A stretch of 64,000 nt of DNA from the NCBI RefSeq assembly GCF_035917455.1, contig NZ_CP109078.1, positions 5,750,001-5,814,000 on the forward strand, in the 5' to 3' direction. Shown here in pieces: positions 3,085-48,448 of the stretch (position 1 is its first letter; each line of letters starts with the position of its first letter). Origin of the DNA: Micromonospora sp. NBC_01796 (GTDB taxonomy: Bacteria; Actinomycetota; Actinomycetes; Mycobacteriales; Micromonosporaceae). The position numbers were made by a program, and so were the translations under genes. Below the pieces are notes generated by a model, which worked only from the letters and a program-made list of their open reading frames with translations, was not told where the DNA came from and did not search any database.

Positions 3085-3086
3085 GC

Positions 3087-14530: not shown

Positions 14531-14557
14531 GGCAACGCTGCGGAAATGACGGATAAC

Positions 14558-28776: not shown

Positions 28777-29229
28777 ATGAATGAGCGCGGATTGATGGTC
28801 GAAATTCTAGCGAGTCAAGCGGCTGACGAGAAGATCTTGGTCGGTGTAGGGAGGTTTTTGATACAGGGCTCACTGATCAACCTTTGGCTCGGTGGTGAAG
28901 GTTCGGACAAGGCATCCTCGGATGAATTCATTGCCTATGCCGAGTTGCGTGAGTCAAAGTGGATGGAGATCGAGGAAGCTTGGTCTGTCGTTAAGCAGCG
29001 AGAGATAGAGTACGGGCATGAGCTGGTGGCTAATGAAGATAGGTTGAAGCCTCAAGGGCACCGCGAACATCGCCTCATGCGTATGCGAATTGATGAATCG
29101 ACAGGCTATCTCTCCTCCCGGACTCGACTCTCTGAGCTATTCAACGAGTTGATAGGGATGAGCGATGCGCTCACCGCCAGAGCGTCCTGGCTTCCTGAGT
29201 GTGTGTTGTGTGAATCCAAGTTGCGGTAA
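28777..29229 (+). CDS. Candidate immunity protein for the RHS toxin
   Basis: A 150-residue acidic, helix-rich protein with no signal peptide, starting 24 bases after the RHS stop on the same strand. I recognise no family. Position and size fit the immunity partner that polymorphic toxins require, and local GC content is lower than the RHS core, which is typical of exchangeable toxin tip and immunity modules. Its 3-prime end overlaps by ~90 bases the run-on end of a decayed serine recombinase on the other strand, so the last residues (ECVLCESKLR) could have been altered by that insertion. Confidence 0.6.
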   Translation: MNERGLMVEILASQAADEKILVGVGRFLIQGSLINLWLGGEGSDKASSDEFIAYAELRESKWMEIEEAWSVVKQREIEYGHELVANEDRLKPQGHREHRLMRMRIDESTGYLSSRTRLSELFNELIGMSDALTARASWLPECVLCESKLR

Positions 29230-31563: not shown

Positions 31564-32180
31564 CGCCCCGTCGGGTTGTCGTCTGCGGCTCGGTTCGGCC
31601 GGCTGGCCGAATCCGTCTCGGTCAGGTACGCGGCGAGCTGCGCCCGACCGCGGTGCAGCCAGGAGAGCACCGTGTTCTTCGGTACGCCGAGTTCGGTCGC
31701 GACGCTCGCCACCGGTAGATCGGCCAGGTGGTGCAGGACCACCGCGCGGCGTTGCTGGTCCGGCAGCCGGCGCAGCGCGGCCACCAGGGCCACGTGGTCG
31801 GGGCTTGGTGCTGATGCGACAGTCACCGGCCGCTGCTGGCGGAGCAGCCGGGCGGCCCGGGCGAGCCGACGTAGCCGGCTGGTGGCCAGGTTCCAGGCGA
31901 CCCGGCGGACCCAGGCGAACGGTTCGTCGTACCGGCTGATCGCCGACCAGCGCTGCCAGGCTCGGATGTACGACTCCTGGACCACGTCCTCCGCCTCGGC
32001 CCGGTCACCGAGGTACGCGTGCAACTGCACCGCCAGCCGGCGGTACGTCGCCTCGTAGAAGACCTCGAACCCGTCCCGGCCACCGGACGAGCCGCGTGAG
32101 TTGTCCGGATCGCCACCGAGCGGTGTCCCCCGCGGCGACGACGTGTCGATCGCACCGGCGGGTGCCGGTCGCTGCCCCAT
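31560..32180 (-). CDS. ECF-family RNA polymerase sigma factor
   Basis: A 206-residue ECF sigma. The ATG at 32180 is chosen for its GGGAGGGAGA site. Region 2 (FYEATYRRLAVQLHAYLGDRAEAEDVVQESYIRAWQRW) and region 4 (LPDQQRRAVVLHHLADLPVASVATELGVPKNTVLSWLHRGRAQLAAYL) are complete. This is the SigE/SigK-like group 4 architecture common in actinomycetes. It is translationally coupled to a membrane protein that probably holds it inactive. Target promoters are not predictable from this window. Confidence 0.93.
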   Translation of the reverse strand: MGQRPAPAGAIDTSSPRGTPLGGDPDNSRGSSGGRDGFEVFYEATYRRLAVQLHAYLGDRAEAEDVVQESYIRAWQRWSAISRYDEPFAWVRRVAWNLATSRLRRLARAARLLRQQRPVTVASAPSPDHVALVAALRRLPDQQRRAVVLHHLADLPVASVATELGVPKNTVLSWLHRGRAQLAAYLTETDSASRPNRAADDNPTGR

Positions 32181-32327
32181 CTCGTCTCCCTCCCAGCACC
32201 GCCCCGTGGTGGGGCGGCATGTGATGGTCACGCCGGCCCGGGGGCGTCGATTGCAGCACGCCGGGGTGGTGTCGCCGGCCCGACAGTGACGAGCACGGTC
32301 AGCCCGGTGTGCGCGACGTCAGCGCGG

Positions 32328-32707
32328 TCAGCGCGGTGGCTGGGGGCCGGGGCAGTTCTCCCGCCAGGCGTCCAGTTCCCGGTTCTTGCCGATGACGGCG
32401 AAACCGTAGCCGGCCGCGGTGGCGCAGTGCTCCTCGGACAGGCCCTCGTACTCGACCTGGAACACCGGTTTGCCGGAGTCGACGAACGGCAGCAGCTTGT
32501 CGCACTCGCCCCGGGAGAAGCACTCCTCGTTGACCGCGAAGTCGAACGTCGGCTCCAGCGCGGTCACCTGCGCCAGGTCGTTGGTCAGGCCGGGGGAGAG
32601 TTCGGCGTCACGGGCCAGCGCGGCCAGCCGCCGGTTGAAGACGAGTTGGTCGTCGAAGCTGAGCGGAAATCCGGTGTCGTGCGCGTAACCGTCCATGTGA
32701 GCCGGGA
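32328..32707 (-). pseudogene. GH114 endo-alpha-1,4-polygalactosaminidase, C-terminal remnant
   Basis: The last ~125 codons read HMDGYAHDTGFPLSFDDQLV, then QVTALEPTFDFAVNEECFSR, then FVDSGKPVFQVEYEG. This matches the C-terminal half of the TIM-barrel GH114 family (DGYANDTGFPL, NEQCF, GKPVFxVEYE). The 5-prime part ends exactly at the CTAG target site of the adjoining IS5-type element. Beyond that element lies another transposase remnant, not the missing half, so the truncation predates or accompanied further rearrangement. Confidence 0.8.
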
Positions 32708-32711
32708 CTAG

Positions 32712-33743
32712 GGCGCGTTTTATAAGTCCGGTCGGAGCCACTCTCCGATGGCGGTGATGGTCAGGACGGCCTGGTAGCGGACGGCGAGTTTGTCGTATCG
32801 GGTCGCGACGCCGCGGTGGCGTTTGAGGCGGTTGATGCCGCACTCGACGGCGTGGCGTTGCCGGTAGACGACCGGGTCGAAGCGGGGTGGGCGACCGCCC
32901 TTCGATCCCTTGGCTTTGCGGTGGGCGTCCTGGTCGGCTTTGCTCGGGATGCAGGCCTTGATCCCGCGGGAACGCAGGTGGGCTCGGTTGCTTTTCGAGG
33001 TGTAGGCCTTGTCGGCCAGGACGAGGTCCGGACGGGTCCGGGGATGCCCACCGCCGGGCCGGCCCACCCGGATCTTGCGTAGGACGGGGATGAACTGCGG
33101 GCTGTCGCCGCGTTGACCGGCCGTGAGGATCAGGGCGAGGGGTTTCTGACCTTGTTCACAGGCCAGATGCGTCTTGGTGGTCAGCCCGCCTCGCGACCGC
33201 CCGAGCGCGTGATCGACGGGCTCGTCGTGGATGCCGCCGGGTGGTTCTCTCTGCAGATGCCCGTCCCGGCGGGCACCGGCAGCGTGTTGGTGGGCGCGGC
33301 TGGTCATCGAGTCGATGCTGACGTCCCACTCGATCCGGCCGGCCGCGTCAGCGCTGGCCTGTAGCCCGGCGAGGATCTTCTCCCAGGTGCCGTCGCGCTG
33401 CCAGCGGCGGAACAGGCCGTAGATGGTGGGCCAGGGCGCGTACTCGGCCGGGACGTCACGCCAGGGTGAACCGATCCGGATCCGCCACCGAATCCCGTCG
33501 ATCAGCTGCCTTCTTGTCCACTTCGGCGGACGACCCCGAACCGGCGCAGCGGGTAGCAACGGGGCAAGCGCCGCCCATTGCGCGTCGGTCAGGTCGTGCC
33601 GCCTCGTCACCGCTAGGGTGGCCACGAGGTCTCCGGTGCATGGTGCTTCTTGGTCGTTGTACCAAGTACCGGAGACCTCGTTGTCTATCGATCACCGCCA
33701 CGCCGTGACCTCAACCTGCCCACCGTGCTTTATGAAACGCGCC
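32712..33743 (-). mobile_element. IS5-family insertion sequence, apparently intact
   Basis: Terminal inverted repeats GGCGCGTTTTATAAG (left, 32712) and GGCGCGTTTCATAAAG (right, read inward from 33743) flank one transposase gene. CTAG is present on both sides (32708-32711 and 33744-33747) as a 4-base target duplication, as expected for this family. Length is 1032 bases. Confidence 0.88.
32720..33625 (-). CDS. IS5-family transposase
   Basis: A 301-residue DDE transposase in a single frame. The N-terminal region [14 protein letters not shown]...[20 protein letters not shown] is typical of the family, followed by [20 protein letters not shown]. The catalytic core includes WDVSIDSM (first Asp), [14 protein letters not shown] (second Asp) and [23 protein letters not shown] (Glu in the YREK-like region). 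No frameshift is visible, so the element may be active. Its start lies inside the right inverted-repeat region. Confidence 0.93.
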
Positions 33744-33811
33744 CTAGGAGCCGTTCGGAGTTTGGATCTTGGTGGGGTGGGTGGTGTGCTGGCCGTGGCT
33801 GGTAGAACTCG

Positions 33812-34130
33812 GTGGTGGCGCGTTTCGATGTGACGGATGCCGAGTGGGTGTTGATCGGGCCGTTGTTGCCGGTCGCGGCGACGGGGCCGTTGCCGCGTCG
33901 GGTGCGGGACCAGTTCAACGGGATCCTGTGGCGGTTTCGGACCCACGCTCTACTCCCGGTTCAACCGCTGGGCCAGGGCCGGGGTGTTCCAGGACCTGAT
34001 GAACGCGTTGATCTCCGAGGCCGCGTCGCGTGGGCTGGTCGGGCTGGAACTGATTAGTGTGGACTCCACCGTGGTGAGAGCGCACCACGAGTCACATCGT
34101 GGCAATGACGAAAGCCGAGGGGCGGTAGGG
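33812..34130 (+). pseudogene. Second IS5-type transposase remnant
   Basis: Reads VARFDVTDAEWVLIGPLLPV then PRRVRDQFNGILWRFRT. A deletion and frame change follow, leading into SRFNRWARAGVFQDLMNALI and ELISVDSTVVRAHHES in another frame. These are successive conserved blocks of a different IS5-group transposase, so it is broken by at least one indel and truncated after the first catalytic aspartate. Confidence 0.75.
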
Positions 34131-34210
34131 CACGCGCGGAGCCGTCGGGGGCCTGGGTCGCCGGTGGTTGTCGGGGATGGGGTCCTGCGCGGCGCCGGAC
34201 ACGCTGACCG

Positions 34211-34350
34211 CCCCTTCTCCTTGCCCAGTTGGCGCTGCGGCAGCCTGATCTGATGGCGCAGGGCAAGAATCTCCACATCCTCGTCCCGATTGCTCATCGG
34301 CAGCATCGCGAACGCCTTCGTCGCGCTCAAGTACGCCAGTCGGCGCAGCA
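34211..34350 (-). pseudogene. Integrase-core transposase, N-terminal remnant
   Basis: About 46 codons read LAYLSATKAFAMLPMSNRDE, then DVEILALRHQIRLPQRQLGK. This matches the N-terminal helix block (DxEILALRHQLxVLxRQLGK) of the same actinobacterial integrase-core transposase group as the pieces at 8423 and 30370. Frame changes occur on either side. The following ~260 bases up to the defence operon hold no recognisable gene and presumably its promoter. Confidence 0.7.
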
Positions 34351-34612
34351 CGGCTGCCCACCATGCCGCAGTGATCACCCGGCCGGGTGCAGCGCCAGCA
34401 CCGGTAACCTGGGCCGACCAACCGGTACCCCGGCTTCCACCAGGGCGGATGACGTTTTCGGCAGGGTCAGGGGCAGTCTGACACGTCAGCCGGCCTCTGT
34501 CGGTGAAGCCACGTCGGCGTGCGCCGGTGCGGCGACGGCGGTCCGGGAAACGGCCAGCAAGCATGGCGATACAGCGGATGCTTGACGCCACGGAGTTGGA
34601 CAGGATCGAGCC

Positions 34613-35881
34613 GTGGCTGTCTTCCTGACCGAATTGGACCCGCGCGCGCGTATCAAGGGATCACGGGACGGGCTCGGCGCCCAGCCTGTTTGGTCGGCGA
34701 TGGGACGCCCGCTGATCGGCAATCTGACGACGGTGACCACCGACCTGTCCGCATTCACCACACTGCTGGTCGGTCTGCGGCTTGCCGAGATCGATCCGGG
34801 CGAGGATGACGCGCAGCGGTGGGCGGCGTTCCTGGTGTGGGAGCAAATGGTCGGCTACGTCCGGCACGCCGTGTACGGCGATCGCGGGTTCTTCGGACGC
34901 CAGCGCGTCGCAGCCCGCGCCGAGTCCGCCCGCAGCAACGGCGGAAAGGTGCGTTTGTCGGCCGACCCCGCGTACCAGATCCTGAGTAACCAGAAGACCG
35001 ACGGCCTGCTCGGCAACTACGTCGCGCCGGCGAGAGCGTCCGGGCTCGTCGCCCCTGGCTCGCCGGCCCGTCTCACGCCCGACGCGGCGGCGTTCGTCGA
35101 TGACACCTACCTGCCCCGACTCGCTACGGCGTGGGGACGCGACGCCCAGCACCTCACCCGGGCACTCAAGCAGCAGTCCTACAACTTCGACCTGCGCGAC
35201 AATTCACGGCTCGCGGCTGTGGCGGCCGTGTTCGGCCCGGTCTTGTCGGCGCAGGAGCGGGACTTCTACCGACATCACCTGATCGACGGCGGCTCGCTGG
35301 ACCCGACCGGTGGCCGGCAGGCGCGTCTCGCGTCGCTCATCGAGGTCCGGCCCCGCCCGTCCGCCGGGCCGCTCGGTCCCTACGTCGCCCGGCTCGCCGA
35401 AGACGCCGAGGGCCGGGGTTGGGTGGACGTGTCCGAGCAGTTGCGCCGCATAGCGGCGTGCGAGTCGGTGCTGGCGCCGGCGACGGTGCTGTTCAGCTAC
35501 CTGCTCGGCCGCGACGACGCCCACCTCGACACGGTGGTTGAGGACCTGCGCGCGGTGTGGGGCGACCGGCTGGAATCGGTGCACGAGCGGGCGGCGGCGG
35601 TGCTGCCCGACCGGCAGTGGCGAGACATCGCCGACGGCCTGGCCCAGGGCGACTGGCGGCGGTTGACCCAGGCCCTGGCGCAGCGCAACGCCGCGGTGAT
35701 GCGAGAGCGTGGGGGAGGGCTCGCCTGGCTGGAGGTGACTGACGGCGACCGGCTGCGGGTACGGTTCCGCGACGAACCCGTCGACCTGCCGACCGCGGAC
35801 GGGATACGTGACCTGTGGTGGTACCCGTACTTCCTGCCGTCCCTCATTCGCCTCGTCGCGGCGACGGGAGAGAACGCATGA
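34613..35881 (+). CDS. First gene of a PLD-helicase operon, unknown family
   Basis: A 422-residue protein from GTG at 34613, the first start after an in-frame stop; no strong ribosome-binding site is seen. I do not recognise the family. It is largely helical, with a basic central part (AAFLVWEQMVGYVRHAVYGD; FFGRQRVAARAESARSNGGK) and a C-terminal GDRLRVRFRDEPVDLPTADG. No enzymatic motif is apparent. Its stop overlaps the next gene (ATGA), which in turn overlaps the helicase gene the same way, so the three proteins are probably made in fixed ratio and act together. A substrate-sensing or adaptor role is a guess from context. Confidence 0.7.
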   Translation: MAVFLTELDPRARIKGSRDGLGAQPVWSAMGRPLIGNLTTVTTDLSAFTTLLVGLRLAEIDPGEDDAQRWAAFLVWEQMVGYVRHAVYGDRGFFGRQRVAARAESARSNGGKVRLSADPAYQILSNQKTDGLLGNYVAPARASGLVAPGSPARLTPDAAAFVDDTYLPRLATAWGRDAQHLTRALKQQSYNFDLRDNSRLAAVAAVFGPVLSAQERDFYRHHLIDGGSLDPTGGRQARLASLIEVRPRPSAGPLGPYVARLAEDAEGRGWVDVSEQLRRIAACESVLAPATVLFSYLLGRDDAHLDTVVEDLRAVWGDRLESVHERAAAVLPDRQWRDIADGLAQGDWRRLTQALAQRNAAVMRERGGGLAWLEVTDGDRLRVRFRDEPVDLPTADGIRDLWWYPYFLPSLIRLVAATGENA

Positions 35882-37884
35882 GCGACCAGATCCCGAAGGC
35901 GGTGCTCACCGAGGCGCTGCGAGAGCGGATCGGCGGCCGGCGGACCCTCGCTGCGGTGTTCTGCACCTTCCGCTTCGAGCCAGGCTTCTTCGAACAGGAG
36001 ATCCTGCCCGTCCTGTTCGACCTGCCGTTGCAGCAGGCGCCCGCTGTCCGGCGCCTGCAGCTCGAGGACGCCCTGCGGCCGCTCGCTGGGCAGGTGGCCG
36101 TCTACTACGACCATGGCGCCCTCGTTGTCGGTGACGGCACCGCATGCCTGGATGTGCGTCGAATCCCGGTGCGGCCGACCCGCGGCTACTTCCATCCCAA
36201 GAACGCGTTCATCCTTCTCGAGGACGAGGACACGGGGGAGCGGGCCGTAGTGGCACTGACCGCTTCGGCGAACCTGACCCGGGCGGGCTGGTGGGAGAAC
36301 GTCGAATGCTTCCACCTTGAAGAGATCGCCGAGGGCGGTCGGTCTCGCACATCCACCGACATACGGCGCTTCCTGCGCCGGGTGCGTACCCTGGCCAAGC
36401 ACCACGGCCCGCACGACGCCTCGGACCAGGTGCAAGCCTTTTTGTCCACCGTGCAGCCGATCACCCAGCGGTCGGTCAACCAGGTCCTGCACCCGCACTT
36501 CATCGTCACTGGTAGCCGCAGCGGGATGCCACTGGTGGACCAGCTCGACGACATCGCCGGGCGGCGGCTTCGCGGCGCGAACCTGGAAGTGCTCTCCCCG
36601 TACCTGGACGATGCGGACACCTCGACGCCGCTGGTCGCACTGCTCGACCGGTTCCAGCCGCCACAGTGGCGCATTCTTCTGCCGGAGGAACGCGGCCTGG
36701 CCCGCTGCCGCACCTCTCTCTACGACTGGGTACAGAGGCACGGCGGCCGGTGGGGCCGGCTACCCACCTCCCACACCGCCCGCGGCGGAAAGCAGGCCAG
36801 CGGCGCCGCCGCCGCGCCGCGAGCCGTCCACGCGAAGGTGTACCGCTTCTTCACCGACGACTGGGAGATCACCCTCGTCGGCTCGTTCAACCTGACTAGT
36901 CCCGCTCACCAGGCCGGGGGGAACGTCGAGTCCGGAGTCCTCGTGGAGGTGCCCACACCACGCCGGCCGCGTTTCTGGCTGGAGCCGGTCAACGAGCCCC
37001 CGACCTTCGCGCCGACGTCCGCCTCCGAGGACGACCGTGGCGACTTCGACGCGATACCGCTCGCGGTCCGCTACGACTGGACCAGCGAGACCGCTGACGT
37101 GCTGTGGGACGCCGCCAGCGTCAGCCCGCCGCTGCACGTGCACCAGGCTGTACCCCTGTTCTCCCTGCCACCCCTGAAGCCGGCCACGTGGACCGCGCTG
37201 CCCGCCGACGACGCCCGGAACCTGGCCGAGCGGCTGCGCTCGTCCAGCTTCCTCACCGTCGTCGACGGTGACCGCCGCGCAGTTGTACTCGTCCGCGAGA
37301 CCGGCATGGCCCACCGGCCGTCCCTGCTGCTCGACCTCACCCCGGCGGAGATCCTGCGCTACTGGTCGATGCTCAACCCCGACCAGCGGGCCGCCGCCAT
37401 CGCCGCCCACGGCGCGAGAGTCGACGATTCCGGTACGGAGGCACTGCGCCTACCGGCAGCGAAGACCGTCGACTCGATCTTCGACCGGTTCGCCGGCATG
37501 TTCCACGGCTTCGGCAGCCTCACCCGTACCGTCGAGGAGGCACTCGCCGACGGCCGCGCGGAACACGCCCGCTTTCTCATCTTCGGCGCCAAGTACGACT
37601 CCCTGCCCGTGCTGCTCCAGCGGGTGGTCGACGACAAGGACGGAGACCTCGTGGAGCGCTACCTCACCGTGCTCTGCGCCCACCAGGTCGTCGACCGGAT
37701 CCGCCGGCACTGGCCACAGTTCTGGGCGTCCGACCCGCTCGGGGCGGCGCGCCTGCACACGGCACTCACCACCCGCGCCCAGCTGCGGGAGCAGATCGCC
37801 GTACGCAACGACGCCGACATGGTCGACTTCCTCGACTGGTACGAGAGCCGCTTCCTCGACGACTGCGCAGAGGCGCCGGCATGA
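35878..37884 (+). CDS. Phospholipase D-like nuclease, two HxK motifs
   Basis: A 668-residue protein starting at the ATG at 35878 behind GGGAG. Two PLD half-sites are visible. H106-P-K108 lies in GYFHPKNAFILLED with the following ALTASANLTRAGW. H318-A-K320 lies in AVHAKVYRFF with GSFNLTSPAHQ. The paired xSxNLT segments are typical of PLD-family nucleases such as those in DISARM and some restriction systems. The C-terminal ~300 residues are a separate domain without recognised motifs. It lies between an unknown protein and an SNF2-like helicase, coupled by ATGA overlaps on both sides. A DNA-cleaving role for the complex is inferred. Confidence 0.85.
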   Translation: MSDQIPKAVLTEALRERIGGRRTLAAVFCTFRFEPGFFEQEILPVLFDLPLQQAPAVRRLQLEDALRPLAGQVAVYYDHGALVVGDGTACLDVRRIPVRPTRGYFHPKNAFILLEDEDTGERAVVALTASANLTRAGWWENVECFHLEEIAEGGRSRTSTDIRRFLRRVRTLAKHHGPHDASDQVQAFLSTVQPITQRSVNQVLHPHFIVTGSRSGMPLVDQLDDIAGRRLRGANLEVLSPYLDDADTSTPLVALLDRFQPPQWRILLPEERGLARCRTSLYDWVQRHGGRWGRLPTSHTARGGKQASGAAAAPRAVHAKVYRFFTDDWEITLVGSFNLTSPAHQAGGNVESGVLVEVPTPRRPRFWLEPVNEPPTFAPTSASEDDRGDFDAIPLAVRYDWTSETADVLWDAASVSPPLHVHQAVPLFSLPPLKPATWTALPADDARNLAERLRSSSFLTVVDGDRRAVVLVRETGMAHRPSLLLDLTPAEILRYWSMLNPDQRAAAIAAHGARVDDSGTEALRLPAAKTVDSIFDRFAGMFHGFGSLTRTVEEALADGRAEHARFLIFGAKYDSLPVLLQRVVDDKDGDLVERYLTVLCAHQVVDRIRRHWPQFWASDPLGAARLHTALTTRAQLREQIAVRNDADMVDFLDWYESRFLDDCAEAPA

Positions 37885-40800
37885 GACTGACCATCGACAC
37901 CGCCGCCCGGCTGCTGGACTTCGACCGGCTGATCAGCAACGAACAACGCGCCACCGACCAGCTCGCCGGCGCGGTCGCCGTACACAACATCCTCCACGAG
38001 CACACCGTCGCCTACCTCGCCGACGAAGTGGGCATGGGCAAGACCTACGTCGCCCTCGGGGTCGTGGCGCTGCTGCGCCACTTCCAGCCCGACCTGCGGC
38101 TGCTCGTCATCGCCCCCCGAGCCAACATCCAACACAAGTGGCAGCGGGAACAGAACGTCTTCACCGCGAACAACGTCCGCCTCGACGACCTGCGCGTCCG
38201 CATGCCCGACGGCCTGCCGGCGCGGCCGCTCGTGCACTGCGACAGCCTGATCGAGCTGCTGGAGGAGACCGCCGTCGCCCCGGACCGAGACTTCTTCGTC
38301 CGCCTGCCCAGCTTCAGCCTGCCCCTGCGCCAGGACCCCGCACAGCGCCGACCCTTCCGCGACCGCCTGCGGCGGCAGATTCCATGGCTGCCCGACGAAC
38401 TGGTCGACCTACGCGCCAACGCCGAAGTCGTCAAGGACCGCTTCGCCCAGGCGATCAACGCCGCCCTTCCCCACTTCGACCTCGTCATCGTCGACGAGGC
38501 CCACAACCTCAAACACGGATGGGGACCCCACGCCTCCGCCCGCAACCGGGTCCTCGCCACCGCCCTCGGCCGCCAGCGCGACGACATCGCGGCGAGCCTT
38601 CAGCACGCCTACGGCGCGCGCGCAGGCAAGGTCCTGCTGCTGTCGGCGACCCCCGTCGACGACGACTACCGACAACTCTGGAATCAACTCGACCTCCTCG
38701 GTCGCGGCGGACCGTTCGCCGCCCTACGCGCCGCCGACGCCACCGAAGACCAGAAGCGGGACGTGACGGGACGGTTCCTGATCCGGCGCGTGACCTCCCT
38801 GAAGGTCGCCGGCCAGCAGCTCACCAAGAACCTCTACCGGCGGGAGTGGCGCCAGGGCGGCCTCACCGTCCACGACGAGCCCATCCAGATCACCGACGAC
38901 CGGCAACGGCTCACCGTGGCGCTCGTTCAGAAGAAGGTCAGCGACCTCCTCGGACACGAACGCTTCGGCGCCCGGTTCCAGGTCGGCATGCTCGCCTCCT
39001 TCGAGTCCTTCCTGCAAACCAGCGGCGCCACCGGGCAGCAACCTGACGACCCCACCGACGACGAGCAGACGCCGAACTTCGACGGCGCCGACCAGGCCAC
39101 CGACGTCGCCGAGCGGCAGGGCGCCGACGTGCCCATGCTCGACGAACTCGCCCGCGACCACGCCCGACGGTTCGGACGCGAGCTGCCGCACCCGAAGATG
39201 GACGCGCTCGTTGACGCCCTGTCCTCGTCCTGGCGCGACGGGCACAAGGGCCTCGTCTTCGTCCGCCGCGTCGCATCGGTCGCGGAACTGAAACGCAAAC
39301 TCGACGACGAGTACAACGACTGGCTCATCACCCGACTACGGGGGCGCCTCCATCCCCGCCACCACGGCGCACTCGACACCGCCGTGGCCGACTACCGCGA
39401 CCACCGCTCCCGGCACACCGTCACCGACAACAACCAGCCAGACAACCACGACGAGGACTCCGGCGGAGACGACACCTTCTTCGCCTGGTTCTTCCGCGGC
39501 CGCGGACCCGACACCGTCATCAGCGGCGCACGAATCCAAGAACGCTTTCGCAACCTCGGCAGCCCACTCGGCATCTTCTTCGACGACAACCACGTCATGG
39601 ACATCCTCGACGCCGCCCCCGGCGAGGTGGTGAGCCGCCTCGCGGCCGCACTCGGCGAAGACCCTGAGAAGGCCCATCACCTGATCCGGGAGCACTCCCG
39701 CCATTATTTGTCAGAGGCGAAACAACCGACCAGGGGAGCCCGCTTCGACGCCGCGCAAGCCGCGGCCCTGGAACTGCTCGCCGCGACCACCGGCCCACAG
39801 CGGGCGCGCGCCGAGGTTGCCTGGTGGGAGCTGTATCGGCCGCGGAAGCAGCAGCGGCCTGCCGCAGGCGCAGCCGAAGCGGACCTGCTCGAAACCCGTA
39901 CCTTCTTCACCGAACTCCGCCGTCGTAGCCGGCTGCGCTCCGTGCTCTGGCCGCAGCCCACGGGGGACAACCTCACTGCAGCCTTCCGGGAACAACACCA
40001 ACGCGGCCAATTGCTGTCCGCTGCGTCCCGGCTCGGTCACGCCTTCCTCGACCTCTACACCATCGTCACCGACCACCTGCGCTCACTCAACCCCAGCGAG
40101 GGCATGGAGCCGGGCACCGAACTCATCGCCGCCTGGCTCGACGAACTCGAACGCCAAGCTCACACCACCGCCGGCAACTGGTCGGCGTACGACGAGCTCA
40201 AGAACCTCGCCAGGCACCACGACCTGATCATCGACACGACTCTGCCCGAACTACGCCGCGCCGACCTACGAGAAACGTCGACCCACGTCAGTCGGCTCCT
40301 CACCGCGCAGCAACCGGTCGCCGGCATGTCCGGCCGGGTCAACCGTCGCCTCGTGCAACAGTTCCGCCTCCCCGGCTACCCGCTCGTGCTGATCTGCACC
40401 GACCTGCTCCAAGAAGGCGAGGACCTGCACACCTTCTGCTCCCGCGTCTACCACTATGGCCTCGCATGGACCCCGTCCGCCATCGAACAACGCATCGGAC
40501 GCATCGACCGCATGCGCTCCCAGACCGAACGACGCCTGACCAAACCGTGCGACACCGTGAGCGGAGACGACCTGCTTCAGGTGCACTACCCCCATCTCGC
40601 CGATACCATCGAGCGCCTCCAGGTACGCCGCGTACTTCACCGCGTCAACGACTTCCTGCGACTGATGCACGAGGGCCTCACGACGCCTCCGGCCGGCGAC
40701 GGGCACCTCGACATCGCCTGGGAGGCACTGGCCGACGACGGCATACCCCCAGTGCACACCGAGCCGCTCGTCACGTCCTTCCCCGTCCGCGCCCAACACC

Positions 40801-41687
40801 TCGCCGGCCGCGACCGCCCCCTGGCCGTCAACGAGTCACGCGTACAACAGCACCTCGACCGATTCGCCGCGCTGGCTGACAGCAACCTCCACGGCGTTAC
40901 TGTGGAATGGGAACGCCATCAACCAAGCCGGAACACCCGGCTCGGCACCATGATCCTGAACACCGGCAGCCGGCAGCCCTTCAGCCTGCACCTGAGCCAT
41001 GACAGCGGTCACCTCGTGGTCCGCTGTGTCACCCTTGTCGGCAGCATCGAGCGCGATGAGCAGTGGCGGCAGTTCGGACTACGCAGCGGTACCACCCCGG
41101 CGCGGCTCGGTGTCGTCCGCACCCGCGGCGGCAGCTACGACCTCACCGTCGAAGAGGACGTGCCGCTCACTAGCCGCCGGCACGACCGAGCCCGGGTAAG
41201 CGCCTTGCTGGACCGGGTCGCCGCCCTCGCCGAGGATGCGGAGCGGCAACACCTGCCCGATCGTGACCGGCTCCTGACGGGAATCGGTTCGGGGTTGCGG
41301 GGTGTTCGGCACCGCGCTGAGTGGCGCACGCTCTGCGATGCGGAGGACATGCGCGTCCGACGACACGGTATCGTCGTGCGATTCGCCAAGCAGCGTTCGC
41401 ACACCGTCCAGATACAGGACCTGATTGACGCCTACCTCGTGACCGCCGTCATCGCCCACCACGACGACCTCGCCCACCAGCCTTCGACGGCGCGCAATGC
41501 CTGGTTCCAGAACCGCTACAGCAGCCTCGTGGGCTTCCGGGTGGCAGCAGACGGTCACCTGGTGGCCCAGGGCTGGACCCCGAAGGACGGGCTCACCGCG
41601 AATGCCTTCCAAGCAATCGTCCGCGCGGTGGCCCGTCAGGCCCACCGGTACGAGTTCCGGCTCACTGGCGCCGCAGGCGACTACTGA
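37881..41687 (+). CDS. SNF2-like DEAD/DEAH helicase
   Basis: A 1268-residue superfamily 2 ATPase. It has Walker A (D48-E-V-G-M-G-K-T55), a DEAH box at 205-208 (VIVDEAHNLKHG), motif III (LLLSATPVDDDYRQLWNQLD), and motif VI Q870-R-I-G-R-I-D-R in AIEQRIGRIDRM. Between ~390 and 800 is a large helical insertion with an acidic low-complexity patch (NQPDNHDEDSGGDD). The last ~350 residues form an unknown C-terminal domain. DEVGMGKT plus QRIGRIDR is the pattern of SNF2-type translocases in phage-defence operons. Last gene of the coupled operon; no methyltransferase or DUF1998 gene accompanies it, unlike DISARM. Confidence 0.9.
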   Translation: MRLTIDTAARLLDFDRLISNEQRATDQLAGAVAVHNILHEHTVAYLADEVGMGKTYVALGVVALLRHFQPDLRLLVIAPRANIQHKWQREQNVFTANNVRLDDLRVRMPDGLPARPLVHCDSLIELLEETAVAPDRDFFVRLPSFSLPLRQDPAQRRPFRDRLRRQIPWLPDELVDLRANAEVVKDRFAQAINAALPHFDLVIVDEAHNLKHGWGPHASARNRVLATALGRQRDDIAASLQHAYGARAGKVLLLSATPVDDDYRQLWNQLDLLGRGGPFAALRAADATEDQKRDVTGRFLIRRVTSLKVAGQQLTKNLYRREWRQGGLTVHDEPIQITDDRQRLTVALVQKKVSDLLGHERFGARFQVGMLASFESFLQTSGATGQQPDDPTDDEQTPNFDGADQATDVAERQGADVPMLDELARDHARRFGRELPHPKMDALVDALSSSWRDGHKGLVFVRRVASVAELKRKLDDEYNDWLITRLRGRLHPRHHGALDTAVADYRDHRSRHTVTDNNQPDNHDEDSGGDDTFFAWFFRGRGPDTVISGARIQERFRNLGSPLGIFFDDNHVMDILDAAPGEVVSRLAAALGEDPEKAHHLIREHSRHYLSEAKQPTRGARFDAAQAAALELLAATTGPQRARAEVAWWELYRPRKQQRPAAGAAEADLLETRTFFTELRRRSRLRSVLWPQPTGDNLTAAFREQHQRGQLLSAASRLGHAFLDLYTIVTDHLRSLNPSEGMEPGTELIAAWLDELERQAHTTAGNWSAYDELKNLARHHDLIIDTTLPELRRADLRETSTHVSRLLTAQQPVAGMSGRVNRRLVQQFRLPGYPLVLICTDLLQEGEDLHTFCSRVYHYGLAWTPSAIEQRIGRIDRMRSQTERRLTKPCDTVSGDDLLQVHYPHLADTIERLQVRRVLHRVNDFLRLMHEGLTTPPAGDGHLDIAWEALADDGIPPVHTEPLVTSFPVRAQHLAGRDRPLAVNESRVQQHLDRFAALADSNLHGVTVEWERHQPSRNTRLGTMILNTGSRQPFSLHLSHDSGHLVVRCVTLVGSIERDEQWRQFGLRSGTTPARLGVVRTRGGSYDLTVEEDVPLTSRRHDRARVSALLDRVAALAEDAERQHLPDRDRLLTGIGSGLRGVRHRAEWRTLCDAEDMRVRRHGIVVRFAKQRSHTVQIQDLIDAYLVTAVIAHHDDLAHQPSTARNAWFQNRYSSLVGFRVAADGHLVAQGWTPKDGLTANAFQAIVRAVARQAHRYEFRLTGAAGDY

Positions 41688-42169
41688 TCCGAGGCGGCTA
41701 TGCCTGTTCGCGGCCCATTTGTTCGAACCCCAGCGGGCATATGGCTGGCCGCTGCGGTGAGGGCCAGGTTGTCGAATTGTCTGATCGAGTGGGCGGTGCT
41801 TCACCAGTCGCGTTGCCGGTTGTTACACCAGCCGGGCCTTGGGCTCCGAGCGCTCATCGGGCCGGTTGCCGACTCGAGCCAGGCGGTCCGTCCCGCGTCG
41901 TTGAGGCGCAGCAGCCAGGCTAGGCCGTCCTTGACCGCCTGTCGCCACTGCTGAGCGGGCTGTCCGGCCGTACCGACTCCGGCCGCCACGGCGTCTCGAT
42001 CGACCACACGTCTGCAAGACCGTCTGGCCGGCAGCAGTCAGAAAGCCGCACAACAGTTCGGCTTCCGGATGGCCGCCGAACCGGTCGCAGGATTGGGCAT
42101 GAGCAGCCTGCGAGGGCCAGCCATGCTCAATCCTGCGACATGGACGTCAAGCTGCACGTTCAATCGAGC
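41688..42169. other. No gene recognised after the helicase operon
   Basis: About 480 bases in which all open frames are shadows without family motifs. No clear terminator hairpin or RNA gene is seen. It ends at the right copy of the 70-bp direct repeat. Confidence 0.5.
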
Positions 42170-42239
42170 AATCAGCATAATTGCAGGTCGGTGGCGATTC
42201 TGATTGTGTAGTTGAGGTTCAACTCGGGCCTCGGACACC
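42170..42239 (+). repeat. 70-bp imperfect direct repeat, right copy
   Basis: Matches 14558-14627 at about 62 of 70 positions in the same orientation (TAATTGCAGGTCGG and GTTCAACTCGGGCCTCGGACAC blocks conserved). It lies between the PLD-helicase operon and the AbrB/integrase pair. Confidence 0.7.
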
Positions 42240-42383
42240 AGTTTTGGTGGAGCTTCACCAGGCATGGACCAGATTCGATTCTGTACTGGTATCTGCCCCG
42301 CATACGTGCGATAACAGATGATCCGGGCGTCGGCGGCCTGGGCGCAGTTGGCGTGTTGCGCCGTTTCCGCGGTTGGGCTGGTC

Positions 42384-42869
42384 ATGACACCAACCCGCCG
42401 CTGCGACCGCGAGCGACTCATCGGCGTGCTCATACCGACCCCGCTTCCCGACAGACCGCGCCCCGGTCCGGCGCCGCTGCCGGTGCTGCCCGCACCCCGT
42501 TCGTTGGCGACCGCCGCAGCGGACGAGGTCGTGATCGGTGTGGCGCGTCCGGACCGATCCGGCCGGGTGACCGAACGCGGCCTGCTGGACGCGTTGCGCT
42601 GGCCGGCGGGCCACCGTATCGACATCCGTCCGCACAGCGGAATGCTCGTTGTCGCGTCAGCGCCAGCCGGACAACACGTGGTCGGCAGTCGAGGGGAGCT
42701 GCCGTTACCGGCGAGCGTTCGGCAGATGTGCGCGTTCGTGCCCGGGCAGCCGCTGCTGCTCGCCGCTCTGGTCGCCCACGATCTGTTGGTGATTCATCCA
42801 GCCAGTACCGTCGTGCGGTTGCTGGCTGATCTTCACGCGCAGGTCGTCGGTGGTCGTCGTGGTTGCTGA
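42384..42869 (+). CDS. AbrB/SpoVT-like DNA-binding protein paired with integrase
   Basis: A 161-residue protein starting at the ATG at 42384. Residues ~47-155 contain VIGVARPDRSGRVTERGLLD, GHRIDIRPHSGMLVV and LPLPASVRQMCAFVPGQPLL, ending LLVIHPASTVVRLLADLHAQ. This resembles the AbrB/MazE-type proteins that accompany tyrosine integrases in Streptomyces and Micromonospora, with a first and second swapped-hairpin-like half. It overlaps the integrase start by 20 bases, so the two are probably co-translated and it may regulate or assist recombination. Family call from memory of that gene pair. Confidence 0.65.
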   Translation: MTPTRRCDRERLIGVLIPTPLPDRPRPGPAPLPVLPAPRSLATAAADEVVIGVARPDRSGRVTERGLLDALRWPAGHRIDIRPHSGMLVVASAPAGQHVVGSRGELPLPASVRQMCAFVPGQPLLLAALVAHDLLVIHPASTVVRLLADLHAQVVGGRRGC

Positions 42870-43887
42870 TCCCGCCCGCGTCGCTGCCGCGCGGCAGTTG
42901 CTGGCCCATTTGGGCGTCACCCTCGCCGATCTGCAGGCTGAGCCCGGTCCGGGGCTGCCGACGCTAGCTGAGTATCTGCCCCAGGTTGTCGCTGCGGCCG
43001 GGCCGGGGACCCGCCGTACGTATGGCACGTACTGGAACCGGATGGCCGCCGTCTGGGGCGACCGTCCCTTGGACGCGGTCGCGGCCAGTGACATCGAGGC
43101 CATGCAGCGACAGGCTGCGGCGACTGCCCGGTCGCGGCGTAACAGCCGTAGTGGTCGTCACGCGGGCGAGCTCGTGATCGCCGCTGCGCGCGCCATTTAC
43201 AACCGGGCCATCGCCGACGAGCTCATCGATCCCGCTGCCAGCCCCGCCCACCGAGTGGTCAAACCCCGCCGACTACCAAGCACCCGCCGCGCACTGACCC
43301 CCGACGAACTCGAAGAGATCAACCTTGCCGCTCGCACCAGCGGCAACGACGTCATCCTCGACGCACTGGTGCTGCGTCTGCACACCGAGACCGCCTGCCG
43401 CCGCGGCGGCGCCCTCGGGCTACGGCTGACCGACCTGAACACCGACCGCGGGCTGGTGCGGCTGACCGAGAAGGGCGCCACTCTGCGCTGGCAACCGATC
43501 ACCCTCGACCTGGCCGCCCACCTCGACGAACACGCCCGCATCCGCGGCGCGGTACTGCCCACCGACCAACTGCTTCGCTACCGCAACGGTCGGCCGATCA
43601 CCAGCCGCCGTTACGACCACCTGTGGAAACGCATCGGCGAGCAACTGCCGTGGGTAGCCGCCCAGGGCATCTCTACCCACTGGCTACGCCACACCACCCT
43701 GACCTGGGTCGAGCGCCACTACGGCTACGGCATCGCCCGCGCCTACGCCGGACACACCGACTCCACCGGCCCAGCCACCACCACATACATCAAAGCCGAC
43801 CTACAAGCCGTCGCGGCTGCACTCGCCGCCATGACCGGCCAACCACACCCACTCGCTGCCGCTGTGGACCGCGCCTTCGGGCCGTGA
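42850..43887 (+). CDS. Tyrosine site-specific recombinase/integrase
   Basis: A 345-residue integrase. The N-terminal SAM-like core-binding domain (TLAEYLPQVVAAAGPGTRRT, YWNRMAAVWGDRPLDAV) is followed by the catalytic domain. The first arginine lies in HTETACRRGGALGLRLTDLN, the His-x-x-Arg box is THWLRHTTLTWV, the second histidine is in AYAGHTDS, and the nucleophile tyrosine is in TTTYIKADLQ. The GTG start at 42850 lies inside the AbrB-like gene. All catalytic positions seem present. It could mobilise the adjoining STAND gene or be left from an integrated element; no tRNA gene is seen nearby as an obvious attachment site. Confidence 0.92.
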   Translation: MVVVVADPARVAAARQLLAHLGVTLADLQAEPGPGLPTLAEYLPQVVAAAGPGTRRTYGTYWNRMAAVWGDRPLDAVAASDIEAMQRQAAATARSRRNSRSGRHAGELVIAAARAIYNRAIADELIDPAASPAHRVVKPRRLPSTRRALTPDELEEINLAARTSGNDVILDALVLRLHTETACRRGGALGLRLTDLNTDRGLVRLTEKGATLRWQPITLDLAAHLDEHARIRGAVLPTDQLLRYRNGRPITSRRYDHLWKRIGEQLPWVAAQGISTHWLRHTTLTWVERHYGYGIARAYAGHTDSTGPATTTYIKADLQAVAAALAAMTGQPHPLAAAVDRAFGP

Positions 43888-44170
43888 GGGCCACCCGAAC
43901 GGCCAGCGTCGGCGAGTTGGCGCCTCGGTGGTGGAACAGATCCACTGGCTGGGTTCGTTCTGGGCCGCAAACCCCTCATCGAATCTTGGGGGCTGGGTCA
44001 CCTCTGACGGTCAGCAGCGCTGCTGGCTGCGGGCGGCGAGACCTAGGCGGGCTCCGCGAGGTGTCGATATCGAAGAAGCTTGCGACGATCCGGCCGTGGC
44101 CGGCGGACGGACGAGTCGCGACTGTCGCTAGAGTCCTCAGCGTGTTCGCGAGAGACCTGCCGAGCGTCGC

Positions 44171-47100
44171 GTGACAGCCACCGTCGCAAGGGCCACCGAG
44201 ATCCGCCTCCGGTCGATTCGGTCGCACGAAGGGAGTCAGGCGCGGGCGTGGGAAGAGCTGGCATACCAATTACGACCGCCGGTCGACGAAGGCCACGTCG
44301 AGACGCGCAAGACTCGCGCGCCTGATGCTGGCGTCGAGTGGTACGAGGTCTACGCAGACGGGCACCAGGAGGGCTTCCAGGCGAAGTTCCATGCCACGTT
44401 GTCAGATGCGCTTAGCGGCATGCGTGAGTCTGTTGAAGCGGTCTGCACCAAGCGGCCGAAGCTGACGAAGCTGACCTTCGTCGTTCCCTACGACTTCACG
44501 GACTCTGGTACGGCGAGCACCAAGACAGACCAAGATCGATGGGATGAGGCGGTAGCCCGATGGCGCACCGACTTCCCTCTAGCGAGCCAGATCGAGTTCG
44601 CTACGGTTCGCGCCGGCGACATCATAACCAAGCTGACATTGAAGGAGCATGCCGGCCGCCGCGAGTACTGGTTCGGCGGACTGGAGATCACCGACGAGTG
44701 GTTGATGCACAGGTTCGCCGAGTCAACCCGCGTGGCAGGTGCGCGTTACACACCCGAGGCCGATTCCCCGACCTCCATCAACGACGTCATCGATGGAGTT
44801 ACGTGCGGCCCGACGTTCATCGCCGAACTCCGCGTGCTTACCAAGAATGCCATTGCTGCCGCGAGGCAGGATGTCGGCATTTGGGGTGCTAGCGCCGCAT
44901 TAGCAACAACTTTGATCAACGAACTCGATGAGGTCTACCGAGCGACCCATGGCGCCACCGATAGTGGTGACAACGTCTTACCGGGCATCGCTCCTGATCT
45001 GGCGGGAACCGCAGCACTCACAAGCAAGATTCTCGATCTCGCATACCTCCACTGGGAGAGTTTACCGAGTTATGGGCGGCGAAACCTTGATATAACCATA
45101 TCTGCATTGCAGGCTCTCCGAACCCTCACTACTGGCAGCGCGGCCAAGGCCCTGGCAAGTCGAGCATTCGCACTGGTCGGGCCAGCAGGTCAAGGCAAGA
45201 CACATGCCTTGATGCGCGCGGTCGACGGCTGCTTGGAGCGCGGTGTGCCCGCTATCGCGATTCTCGGCCAGCGACTGAGCGACAAGAATTGGTGGCCAGC
45301 GGCCGCAGAGACGCTCGGCGGTGTGGCCGTTGGCAGTGATGAATTCTTTCAGGCACTCGACTCCTTGGCTGAAGCACGCCAGTGTCGTGCTTTAGTCGTG
45401 ATTGACGCTATCAACGAGTCCCAGTCTCCCAAGCGATGGAGGGACGAACTGCCGGCTATGCTCGCGCATTTCGAGAAGTACCCCCACCTCGCGCTCATCG
45501 TTTCGTTTCGAACGGACTACCGGGACGTGGTGGGGGCACCGGCGTCGCTCCTAAAGGTCCGGCATCCGGGCTTAGCGGGCATGGAATCTGAAGCGCTGGC
45601 GGCGTACTGCAAACTGTTCGGCATCCCGGTTCCATCCAAGGGCCTCTACGAGCCTGCGCTGAGTAGCCCCCTCTTCCTGCGCATGTACTGCGAAGTTATT
45701 GCAGCAGAACCCCATGGCAGTGCGGCGGCGCCTTCACGCTCGGACCTCTTCGAGCGCTACGCCAAGGTCATTGGCAAGCGGGTGGCGAGCAGGCTCGACT
45801 TGTCCCCGGCGAGCACGGCCGTCTCGACCGCACTGACGTACGTTGTAGACCGAATTTTGGCCAACGGTGGGAGCCCTGTTCCTCGTGACCTGATCGAGGA
45901 GGAGGTGGACGCATTCTTCCCTGGACAGACTTGGCCAAACACCCTCTTCCAACAGATGGCGAGCGAAGGTCTGATCGAAATACAACCGACATATGACGGG
46001 ACAGAATCCGTCACACTTTCATTCCAAGCCTACTCCGAGCATCTCCTTGCCAACCGCCTACTGGCGTCAGTCGATGCAGAGGTGAGGTCATGGTTCCGCC
46101 GGCTCCTCCCGCTCCCGCGAAAGGCAAAGAGGCGGCGAGCTCTGGCGAAGCGCATCGCTGACGCGCCATGGTCTTGGCGATCGCTAGCGGTGACGCTCCC
46201 CGAGAGAGAAGGTCGCGAACTGATCGACCTCCTTCCTCTAGAAATGGATGATTTCCGATTGCAGGAGGCTGTACGTGAGAGCTTGACCGACCGTGCAGCC
46301 TCAGCGTTTGGCTTGCGCGCATTGGAACTGCTTCATCAACGTCTCACCGCAGACTCAGACGGTAACGGGAGCGGCGTGGAGACCGTTCTCGCGCTCGCGC
46401 CGCGCGATGGACATCCAGGAAACGCGGATTGGCTTCATGCCCAACTTGTCGGCGTCAGCATGGCTGATAGAGACGCTTCGTGGTCGATCGCTACTTTCCG
46501 GGTCGACCAACACTCCGACGCTTTTCGTCGGCTGACCCGCTGGGTAGAGTGCTTCGCAGGTGCTGCCATCGAGGAGGAGGTGCGGCTTGCGGCAATAACC
46601 CTCATGTGGCTACTCGCGTCGCCCAATAGATTCCTGCGGGATGGTGCTTCGAAGACTTTGGTAACGCTTATGTCGCACCGATTGAAGATAGCCGCGTCTC
46701 TCATTGCCACAGCGCAACAGGTCGATGATCTTTACGTTCAAGAACGAACACTCACCTGCTCATACGGTGCAGTCCTTGTTGCCGGAGACGCTGACCTGGA
46801 GGGTGTTCGCTCGGTGCTCGAAGCAGTCACCTCTTGGGCTCGATCAGGCCTTCCCGTTGACGTCCTAGCGCGAGACTCCGCTCGGGGCATCGCCGCCTGG
46901 TGCTCCGATCGAAATTTACTGCACGCCGATTCCATGTCAGACTTCGCTCCTCCATATGGAGCGCCGCCGCCCGAGGAGCCTCCGACACGCGAAGACCTCA
47001 AGGAAGCCTGTGGTCCGATCAAGGACGCCGAGGGCAACTACACCGCTTGGCGCGCATCGTCGATTCTGCACTCGTGTCTTGACTGGTACGGCGACTTCAA

Positions 47101-48448
47101 CAAATATGTCGTGAAGGGCGACGTGGAGTTCTTCAGTTGGTATCCGCTATCTGGTCCGGCTCCGAGTAAAAAGGATCATAAGGATCCGACTGATGAAGTC
47201 GACGTCAACTGGGCAGGACGGTGGATCGCTAACCGCGCAATCTCTCTCGGCTGGACCGCGGAACGCTTCGAGGCATTCGAGCGCAATCACGACCTCAGGC
47301 GCGGACGGGAGGGGCATAAGGCCGAGCGATTCGGCAAGAAGTACCAATGGATCGCTCACAGGGAGCTGCTTGCCCGGCTCGCAGACAACTTCCACCCGGC
47401 ATACGAGAGGTGGCACAACGGCCAGAACACGTATCAGGGACCGTGGGTCTGGTACGGACGCGACTTCGACCCGACCCTGCCACCTAGCTTCGTCATGGGT
47501 GAGTCCCAGGTTTGCCGCATTGCTCGTGACGCAACAGCAGATTGGGCGACGCTCCGCACGCCGGAGATGGACATCAATGCTACTCCAGACGAATGGGTTG
47601 CAAAGACCGACGACCTGCCCACTGCCGCGTCGATGTTCTCTTGCGCTGACCTGTCTGGTCGCAAATGGGTCGCGATCCAGCGCTACTCGACTTGGGATCG
47701 CGACAACGCGCAGCGAACCGGGATGTCGCGGCGGGAACGTGACCTCTTTTTCCTACAATTCTCGTGGCTCGTTCCGCGGGGTGGAGGAGTCCAGGTCTAC
47801 GAATTCATCAAGCGAGCGGGCCTGTCTGGCCGGCGAATGCCAGAAGCGAGACGTACTCACCACCAGTACCTCGGTGAGGGGGCATTTGCGCCCATCGTCT
47901 CGACCGCCGAGGTCGAGCTAGATGACTACGACACCCCAAGCAAGCTGCGGAACGTCGGTCTCCGACCACGGCCCGCGGCGGAGCAATATCTGTGGGAAGG
48001 CAACACCCTCGACTGCTCCATCGATGAGTCCGTTGACTTCTACGCGCCTACTCCAGAGCTACTCGGTCGCGCTCGATGGGTTGGCCATCAGGCAGCCTGG
48101 TCAGTCGATGGACAAGTGGTGGCTCGATCGATTGAGTTCCCGGACGGTGAGAAAGCACAAGGCGCCCTGTTGGTCGACGAAGAGTGGTTGAAGACGAGGC
48201 TTCGGGACCTCGACGCCGACATGGTGATCGGCACACTGAGCGAACGCCATGCCCTGCCGATGGACGATGACGACTACAGGCGCATGGCCTCCTCCGATGT
48301 CTGGTACGTGGCGCTCGTGACCTCTGATTCGGACAGCCGAGAAGTCGGCCCCCTCCTCAAGGTTCGACGCCAAGTCCGAGACTCGGTTGGATCGGCACAA
48401 GCGGAACAGATCCCTCCGGAGGAGCCGTTCGACCTGGCATCGACCTAA
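44171..48448 (+). CDS. STAND NTPase with nuclease-like N-terminus (Avs-like)
   Basis: A 1425-residue protein from GTG at 44171. The N-terminus (residues ~1-130) has VEWYEVYADGHQEGFQAKF, an ExQAK-type core as in PD-(D/E)xK (Mrr/Cap4-like) nuclease domains. The centre has Walker A G337-P-A-G-Q-G-K-T344 and a STAND-type Walker B at 407-417 (ALVVIDAINES), followed by helical-domain motifs. The long C-terminal half (~600-1425) would be the sensor. This order (nuclease, STAND ATPase, large sensor) is that of Avs anti-phage proteins, which detect phage proteins and cut DNA. It stands alone between an integrase and a decayed serine recombinase. GC is lower than in its neighbours, suggesting acquisition. 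The trigger is unknown. Confidence 0.8.
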   Translation: MTATVARATEIRLRSIRSHEGSQARAWEELAYQLRPPVDEGHVETRKTRAPDAGVEWYEVYADGHQEGFQAKFHATLSDALSGMRESVEAVCTKRPKLTKLTFVVPYDFTDSGTASTKTDQDRWDEAVARWRTDFPLASQIEFATVRAGDIITKLTLKEHAGRREYWFGGLEITDEWLMHRFAESTRVAGARYTPEADSPTSINDVIDGVTCGPTFIAELRVLTKNAIAAARQDVGIWGASAALATTLINELDEVYRATHGATDSGDNVLPGIAPDLAGTAALTSKILDLAYLHWESLPSYGRRNLDITISALQALRTLTTGSAAKALASRAFALVGPAGQGKTHALMRAVDGCLERGVPAIAILGQRLSDKNWWPAAAETLGGVAVGSDEFFQALDSLAEARQCRALVVIDAINESQSPKRWRDELPAMLAHFEKYPHLALIVSFRTDYRDVVGAPASLLKVRHPGLAGMESEALAAYCKLFGIPVPSKGLYEPALSSPLFLRMYCEVIAAEPHGSAAAPSRSDLFERYAKVIGKRVASRLDLSPASTAVSTALTYVVDRILANGGSPVPRDLIEEEVDAFFPGQTWPNTLFQQMASEGLIEIQPTYDGTESVTLSFQAYSEHLLANRLLASVDAEVRSWFRRLLPLPRKAKRRRALAKRIADAPWSWRSLAVTLPEREGRELIDLLPLEMDDFRLQEAVRESLTDRAASAFGLRALELLHQRLTADSDGNGSGVETVLALAPRDGHPGNADWLHAQLVGVSMADRDASWSIATFRVDQHSDAFRRLTRWVECFAGAAIEEEVRLAAITLMWLLASPNRFLRDGASKTLVTLMSHRLKIAASLIATAQQVDDLYVQERTLTCSYGAVLVAGDADLEGVRSVLEAVTSWARSGLPVDVLARDSARGIAAWCSDRNLLHADSMSDFAPPYGAPPPEEPPTREDLKEACGPIKDAEGNYTAWRASSILHSCLDWYGDFNKYVVKGDVEFFSWYPLSGPAPSKKDHKDPTDEVDVNWAGRWIANRAISLGWTAERFEAFERNHDLRRGREGHKAERFGKKYQWIAHRELLARLADNFHPAYERWHNGQNTYQGPWVWYGRDFDPTLPPSFVMGESQVCRIARDATADWATLRTPEMDINATPDEWVAKTDDLPTAASMFSCADLSGRKWVAIQRYSTWDRDNAQRTGMSRRERDLFFLQFSWLVPRGGGVQVYEFIKRAGLSGRRMPEARRTHHQYLGEGAFAPIVSTAEVELDDYDTPSKLRNVGLRPRPAAEQYLWEGNTLDCSIDESVDFYAPTPELLGRARWVGHQAAWSVDGQVVARSIEFPDGEKAQGALLVDEEWLKTRLRDLDADMVIGTLSERHALPMDDDDYRRMASSDVWYVALVTSDSDSREVGPLLKVRRQVRDSVGSAQAEQIPPEEPFDLAST

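Follow-up and report, generated by a model that had tools for sequence, protein, structure and literature searches.

The DNA analysed here, a stretch of 64,000 nucleotides referred to as the window, corresponds to positions 5750001-5814000 of one 8.56 Mb contig of Micromonospora sp. NBC_01796 (NZ_CP109078.1). It carries an operon of three genes, A, B and C, which had been predicted to form a new defence system. In PADLOC each of the three proteins matches the PDC-M27 model of its own gene position, in the same order. Moreover, the A-B-C order is shared by two plasmid loci, L013 (Rhodoferax antarcticus) and L014 (Vibrio nigripulchritudo), whose genes for a hypothetical protein, a PLD protein and a helicase match PDC-M27A, B and C at 5e-172 or better (best model each) over nearly the whole length. 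Based on these comparisons the trio is a distant, diverged variant of the PDC-M27 candidate rather than a wholly new system. The original prediction had named a match to a described system as what would speak against it; PDC-M27 is such a match and reduces the novelty to that of a divergent variant.

Gene layout and limits of the cassette

All parts lie on the + strand. Gene A (34613..35881, 422 amino acids, PDC-M27A-like by PADLOC and hhalign) begins with GTG. Gene B (35878..37884, 668 amino acids) begins with ATG and encodes a putative PLD-family nuclease that is ZacB/PDC-M27B-like according to Pfam, PADLOC and a motif alignment; an alternative GTG start at 35815 would give 689 amino acids. 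Gene C (37881..41687, ATG start) reads as one frame of 1268 amino acids. Its residues 1-1141 (37881..41303) represent a predicted SNF2/RapA-type SF2 translocase, PDC-M27C-like, as judged from Pfam, NCBIfam, PADLOC and motifs. The remainder, part D (41313..41687), is a fused C-terminal domain in the window and a separate, overlapping fourth gene in the relatives L010, L012 and L025. ATGA overlaps join A to B at 35878-35881 and B to C at 37881-37884.

In the six pairs among the window, L010, L012 and L025 the ratio of non-synonymous to synonymous substitutions (dN/dS) is 0.20-0.31 for gene A, 0.28-0.39 for gene B and 0.23-0.30 for gene C. For part D, dN/dS is 0.19-0.48. A, B, C and D are under purifying selection, so that the genes are not just open frames occurring by chance. 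Coordinates and selection thus bear out the predicted layout of 422, 668 and 1268 codons with two ATGA overlaps.

The limits of the unit were derived by blastn (E 1e-5) using window 31001-46000 as query against the complete relatives L010 (Micromonospora sp. CB01531, NZ_LWLS01000074.1), L012, L025 and L026. Each gives one match: window 34544-41689 at 84% identity for L010, 34602-41673 at 74% for L012, 34611-41673 at 72% for L025 and 34620-41668 at 69% for L026. These matches span 7.1-7.2 kb, start at 34544-34620, end at 41668-41689 and stop at the operon limits in 4/4 comparisons. In the flanks compared (7.6-10 kb upstream; downstream from 0.8 kb for L010 to 5.2 kb for L026) no further similarity to the window was found at E 1e-5. 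Since the DNA similarity to all four relatives ends at the operon limits, the operon is one transfer unit whose parts A, B, C and D move together. The whole transferable cassette, defined as the DNA-level stretch common to the window and L010, covers 34544..41689 (+ strand). The L026 copy is decayed, with gene A in two frames and gene C in several. The A-B-C order is common to eight loci, namely the window, L010, L012, L025, L026 (decayed), L037, L013 and L014.

The four parts and their relation to PDC-M27

PDC-M27 is, as far as its record indicates, a catalogued PADLOC-DB candidate defence system rather than one shown to work. Neither the name nor a test of PDC-M27 was found in the open-access literature, a scope that leaves absence unproven. 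In excerpts from two papers PDCs are called largely unvalidated (PMC12988326) and unpublished candidates of Payne et al. (PMC11811056). The window resembles PDC-M27 in its three-gene order, and profile comparison aligns the greater part of A, B and C with their counterparts.

Protein A had been described as belonging to no recognised family. This holds for Pfam and NCBIfam, which give no match at E<=1, and fails for PADLOC, where the PDC-M27A model is matched at 7.5e-9. The model has one match place in the whole window genome, and 0/14 control genomes are matched. Aligning the window-type and PDC-M27 families of A by hhalign yields 375 columns (E 2e-4, probability 46%) and, with the L037 copy included, 379 columns (E 5e-7, probability 92.5%). 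Reversed controls give 0.41-0.49, and among 20 column-shuffled controls, made without L037, the lowest E is 0.07. The identity of A to the plasmid forms of L013 and L014 is 24% and 19%, respectively. An AlphaFold2 model built from four close sequences is helical with a mean pLDDT of 44.9. No fold is claimed on this basis; A is probably mostly alpha-helical according to the model. A profile search against solved structures with the A profile (A1) had a best E of 0.26.

The PLD domain of gene B stays below the Pfam cut-off. Its protein contains exactly two HxK motifs, H106 and H318, and the residues H106/K108/N132/E143 and H318/K320/N338/E351 are invariant in 8/8 aligned sequences, including the window and the decayed L026. 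Two complete PLD half-sites hence lie within residues 1-360, followed by a C-terminal part, in agreement with the predicted 668-residue two-HxK nuclease. As both half-sites reside in one chain, gene B should build the active site alone. PLD nucleases are metal-independent. The PDC-M27B model is matched at 8.5e-12 over 380/635 positions (PADLOC), and hhalign of the window type with PDC-M27 gives 504 columns (E 7e-14).

Gene C shows helicase domains in Pfam. Its SF2 motifs GxGKT (51-55), DEAH (205-208), ATP (256-258), QEG..LH (844-850) and EQ..GR.DR (869-877) are invariant in 7/7 aligned sequences, L026 with its broken C being left out. C has the SF2 motifs that ATP hydrolysis requires. PDC-M27C is the best of 29 PADLOC families (5.1e-80, 268 bits; ZacC 2.1e-19, DrmD 8.3e-18), and hhalign with the PDC-M27 helicases covers 762 columns (E 1e-45). 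Outside M27, C is closest to the helicases of Azaca, DISARM and Dpd (PADLOC, NCBIfam). The motifs sustain the original call of a SNF2-like helicase, whereas its length of 1268 residues resolves into a ~1140-residue helicase and a tail of ~125 residues, encoded by its own gene in three relatives. Likewise, the insertion between the two helicase halves is there and is longer, but the acidic stretch within it, predicted to be large, looks short by eye from the alignment. The helicase of the PDC-M27 plasmid forms has 869-874 amino acids; the helicase part of the window is ~270 residues longer.

Part D further distinguishes the window type, as it was not found in the plasmid loci L013 and L014. In L010, L012 and L025 the helicase frame stops ~125 residues earlier, and a second frame starting just before this stop encodes the remainder. 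The window is one base shorter at ~41312 (plus a three-base difference) than these three, and the C and D frames are joined. The joining would be either a natural fusion or an assembly error. The C-terminal stretch of the L037 helicase is related to D (E 1e-4, 59/127 positions), and this fused D-like stretch makes a natural C-D fusion plausible.

Three of the four D members match YbjN (best 6.5e-5), and TY-Chap1 and CesT are each matched once and weakly. On these profile matches part D may weakly resemble YbjN/type III-chaperone proteins. The predicted model of D (pLDDT 43.6), in which the order of strands and helices looks compatible with the YbjN/TY-chaperone superfamily, gave no confirmation of the resemblance. 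The best E of a solved-structure profile search with the D profile (A2) is 1.1. According to excerpts from PMC9503650, a chaperone-like partner of the YbjN/type III secretion system type occurs in predicted conflict systems centred on ADP-ribosylglycohydrolase (ARG) with TY-chaperones, sometimes with helicase and nuclease. Such an ARG-centric system was considered for D and rejected, the core ADP-ribosylglycohydrolase being unmatched by A, B or C.

In the D search a small frame at L025 17652-17909, which copies a short piece from the end of the D of that locus, scores like the L037 stretch. All other matches outside D lie at E 0.95 or above. In L025 (15245-17914) an imperfect repeat of the D end follows ~2.6 kb downstream, with a helix-turn-helix (HTH) protein that has a weak dynamin-like match (E 0.0019) between D and the repeat. 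Repeat and HTH gene are perhaps an insertion at the 3' end of the cassette. The window contains an HTH protein of similar length at 5902-8049.

Occurrence and genomic neighbourhood

Profile A1 matches 5/200 family genomes, one of them with a 96-position remnant. The other four carry full-length B directly downstream and are the only ones (4/200) with full-length B. Gene B matched 16/200 family genomes, 12 of them over part of B only; those 12 are not counted as system. Using A as single protein, 7/200 family genomes were matched, and two of these matches (E 7.1e-4 and 9.7e-4, ~70 residues) were dropped as they did not recur by profile or tblastn. Only the window's own genome was matched by the single protein A in 394 class genomes, by the PDC-M27A model in 296 phylum genomes and by profile A1 in 376 phylum genomes; class and phylum samples overlap in part. 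Judging from these searches, the cassette seems rare and patchy, its diverged form being found so far mainly in Micromonosporaceae.

In plasmids, tblastn of A and of B gave no match. With C it gave 10 records, all under 60% identity, including the L013 and L014 plasmids. In a third record (H3), another V. nigripulchritudo plasmid, the same match recurs; the remaining 7 records cover 4-15% of the query. No relatives were seen in the scans of viral contigs. The single match in a phage collection is MT835507.1 (L037), an unverified fecal scaffold with A, B and C in order. It is filed as 'Bacteriophage sp.' and carries the trio along with a WYL regulator, IetA-like ATPases and ZorA/ZorB-like genes; it is possibly a bacterial defence island instead of a phage.

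Downstream of the cassette and outside the shared unit, as judged from the blastn limits, the window contains a phage-integrase-family (tyrosine recombinase) gene identified by Pfam (42850..43887, + strand) and Avs2 (44171..48448, + strand, 1425 amino acids; PADLOC 3.8e-256). The Avs2 protein has no Pfam match at E<=0.001. Further away, at ~4266-14600, there are CRISPR-like repeats with a 61-base period, one 20-mer occurring 76 times and the stretches being split by other genes. Avs2, repeat array and integrase gene uphold the defence-type setting that had been predicted. The genes at 1262-3084 presumably encode type I-E Cas7/Cas5, which they look like. An IS4/5-family transposase is located just upstream of the cassette (32720-33625), and a further transposase-like fragment is visible by eye at ~33812-34253. 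A 2328-amino-acid protein (21766-28752) combines an SpvB-like stretch with a pretoxin HINT domain close to the C terminus and is followed by an open reading frame of 150 amino acids (28777-29229). The pair resembles a polymorphic toxin and, possibly, its immunity gene.

PADLOC defence-family matches lie near the cassette in 5/5 neighbourhoods scanned (of the eight loci; L013, L014 and L026 not included). Near L010 (2068-6434) Wadjet JetC2 is found as two adjacent frames (model positions 4-571 and 596-1356), apparently a split gene. L012 is accompanied by a PD-T7-3 part-match, L025 by a GajB-type UvrD helicase and L037 by the IetA-like and ZorA/ZorB-like genes. Several of the neighbours scanned lack any match, for example two of the three near L012 and 5/9 others in the window. 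A DNA methylase gene (N6_N4_Mtase) is located ~6.5 kb downstream of the lone gene A of L011 (M. gifhornensis).

Putative function and alternative explanations

It is likely, on the sequence evidence, that the unit is a defence cassette of the PDC-M27 kind. As an explanation of the whole we favour, with some reserve, an anti-phage or anti-mobile-DNA cassette of this kind with a helicase-directed nuclease, a function derived from comparison. For the order of events within it we see an even chance of being right. C would load on foreign DNA and translocate, or would sense DNA ends, replication intermediates or other abnormal DNA, and would then deliver or activate B. B would cut metal-independently via one composite active site (H-K/H-K). 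A, probably helical, may bridge or regulate B and C. D, if truly a peptide-binding chaperone-like protein, might keep the complex inactive as long as no trigger protein is bound, so that A and D would act as sensor or adaptor. To tell self from non-self the cassette would rely on DNA structure or a phage factor rather than on a paired methyl mark, as no methyltransferase was found in the unit: a motif search for [DNS]PP[YFW] or PCQ gave nothing in A-D, and a Pfam search no methyltransferase match to A, B or C at E<=1.

Several observations weigh against this explanation. The PADLOC match of A to PDC-M27A spans just 151/460 model positions, and B fits ZacB better than M27B, so that the set is not cleanly PDC-M27. 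In L011 gene A stands alone with an altered end (1900-3273), no trace of B or C being detected there by blastn/tblastn comparison, and L027 has a fragment of gene A only. As to D, no YbjN match at E<=10 is obtained for the window copy, and the D model yields 737 Foldseek matches in the PDB at E<=10 with none at E<=0.001 and no type III secretion chaperone or YbjN among the 50 listed. The neighbour scan mostly covered larger genes and came with no background rate for defence neighbours; moreover, the UvrD-type helicase/GajB and PD-T7-3 part-matches may be generic. Finally, we know of no phage assay of the window trio or of PDC-M27 to report.

A possible, if less probable, alternative is an abortive version in which the helicase, on sensing DNA that is damaged or being replicated, would set B loose on the entire DNA of the cell, whereupon the infected cell dies. 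The division of labour would be that of Hachiman, where helicase and nuclease are likewise separate (HamB with HamA), an analogy only. In the part of PMC12278908 concerned, Hachiman is described as a helicase sensor with a nuclease degrading host and phage DNA. That the unit contains no recognisable self-protecting methyl mark suits this version as well. However, PADLOC searches of A and B at E<=1 bring up no HamA model, and the sequence fits whole-cell cutting and phage-only cutting equally.

We consider it unlikely that the parts form a separate four-part defence system instead of a PDC-M27 that has drifted. Here a chaperone-like D, wired to the SNF2 translocase by fusion or overlap, would license the PLD nuclease on binding of a phage protein, and self would be told from non-self by protein recognition, independently of methylation.

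A function outside defence, as a mobile DNA-repair or element-maintenance module, is improbable as well. Repair is another role of SNF2/RapA helicases and of PLD enzymes, and recombinase and transposase genes adjoin the cassette in the window. On the other hand, the flanks compared differ in all four copies, so no single mobile element carries the cassette. The cassette is rare and patchy, and its family figures among the candidate defence systems (PADLOC; excerpt from PMC11811056).

There is little to be said for a drifted true member of Azaca (ZacABC), which shares the A-B-C order. The PLD half of B matches ZacB at 5.9e-24 in PADLOC, and hhalign aligns 306 columns with ZacB (E 3e-11). In a comparison with six Azaca loci (the A gene of L031 being taken from its model match), hhalign finds A and ZacA to be dissimilar (E 0.13, against 0.019 for the reversed control). 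The window genome contains no match to the ZacA model. The likeness of C to ZacC is confined to the core motifs, ~60 helicase columns by hhalign. Azaca is present in the same family as a distinct operon: 14/200 family genomes match its ZacA model, 8 with an E of at most 1e-110. Membership was rejected for lack of a ZacA relation. Azaca was reportedly shown to be anti-phage by Millman et al. in 2022. In excerpts it is listed with a PLD-like domain, citing Millman et al. 2022 (PMC10952713), and with its mechanism as unknown (PMC12926258).

DISARM (DrmC, DrmD) has the PLD nuclease and SNF2-type helicase motifs in common with the window, and in hidden Markov model searches against DISARM, Dpd and other families, proposed as a check, PDC-M27 matched all three proteins whereas DISARM and Dpd stayed under their cut-offs. 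In NCBIfam, B reaches DrmC at 3.7e-6 (26.6 of 133 bits), and C reaches DrmD at 1.1e-20 (73.6 of 610 bits) and DpdE of Dpd at 5.4e-22 (77.6 of 500 bits), all far under cut-off. DrmB and methyltransferases are absent from the PADLOC matches listed for A, B and C (for C, 25 of 29 families), among which DrmA appears only as a helicase cross-match (3.5e-13). DISARM membership was rejected as neither DrmB nor a methyltransferase was found in the unit and the DrmC and DrmD scores are under cut-off, and Dpd membership on the DpdE score; the prediction of a nuclease-translocase operon distinct from DISARM is thereby supported. A stripped or derived DISARM or Dpd, with a DrmC-like PLD protein, a DrmD/DpdE-like helicase and a methyltransferase elsewhere in the genome (the rest of which was not searched for methyltransferases), is highly improbable given these scores, even though, according to an excerpt from PMC9142583, DISARM can do without its PLD protein and its components may combine with others. 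Excerpts from PMC12458937 and PMC12839542 on helicase-PLD systems name none with the window's gene set.

Read as a diverged PDC-M27-kind cassette, the variant would give the PDC-M27 family clear limits, i.e. one transferable unit with defined ends. It adds a fourth part that was not found in the two plasmid forms as well as a link to Azaca via gene B. This link suggests one line of PLD nucleases paired with different first genes and helicases. Moreover, the variant provides active-site predictions for a nuclease-helicase system that seemingly operates without a methyl mark.

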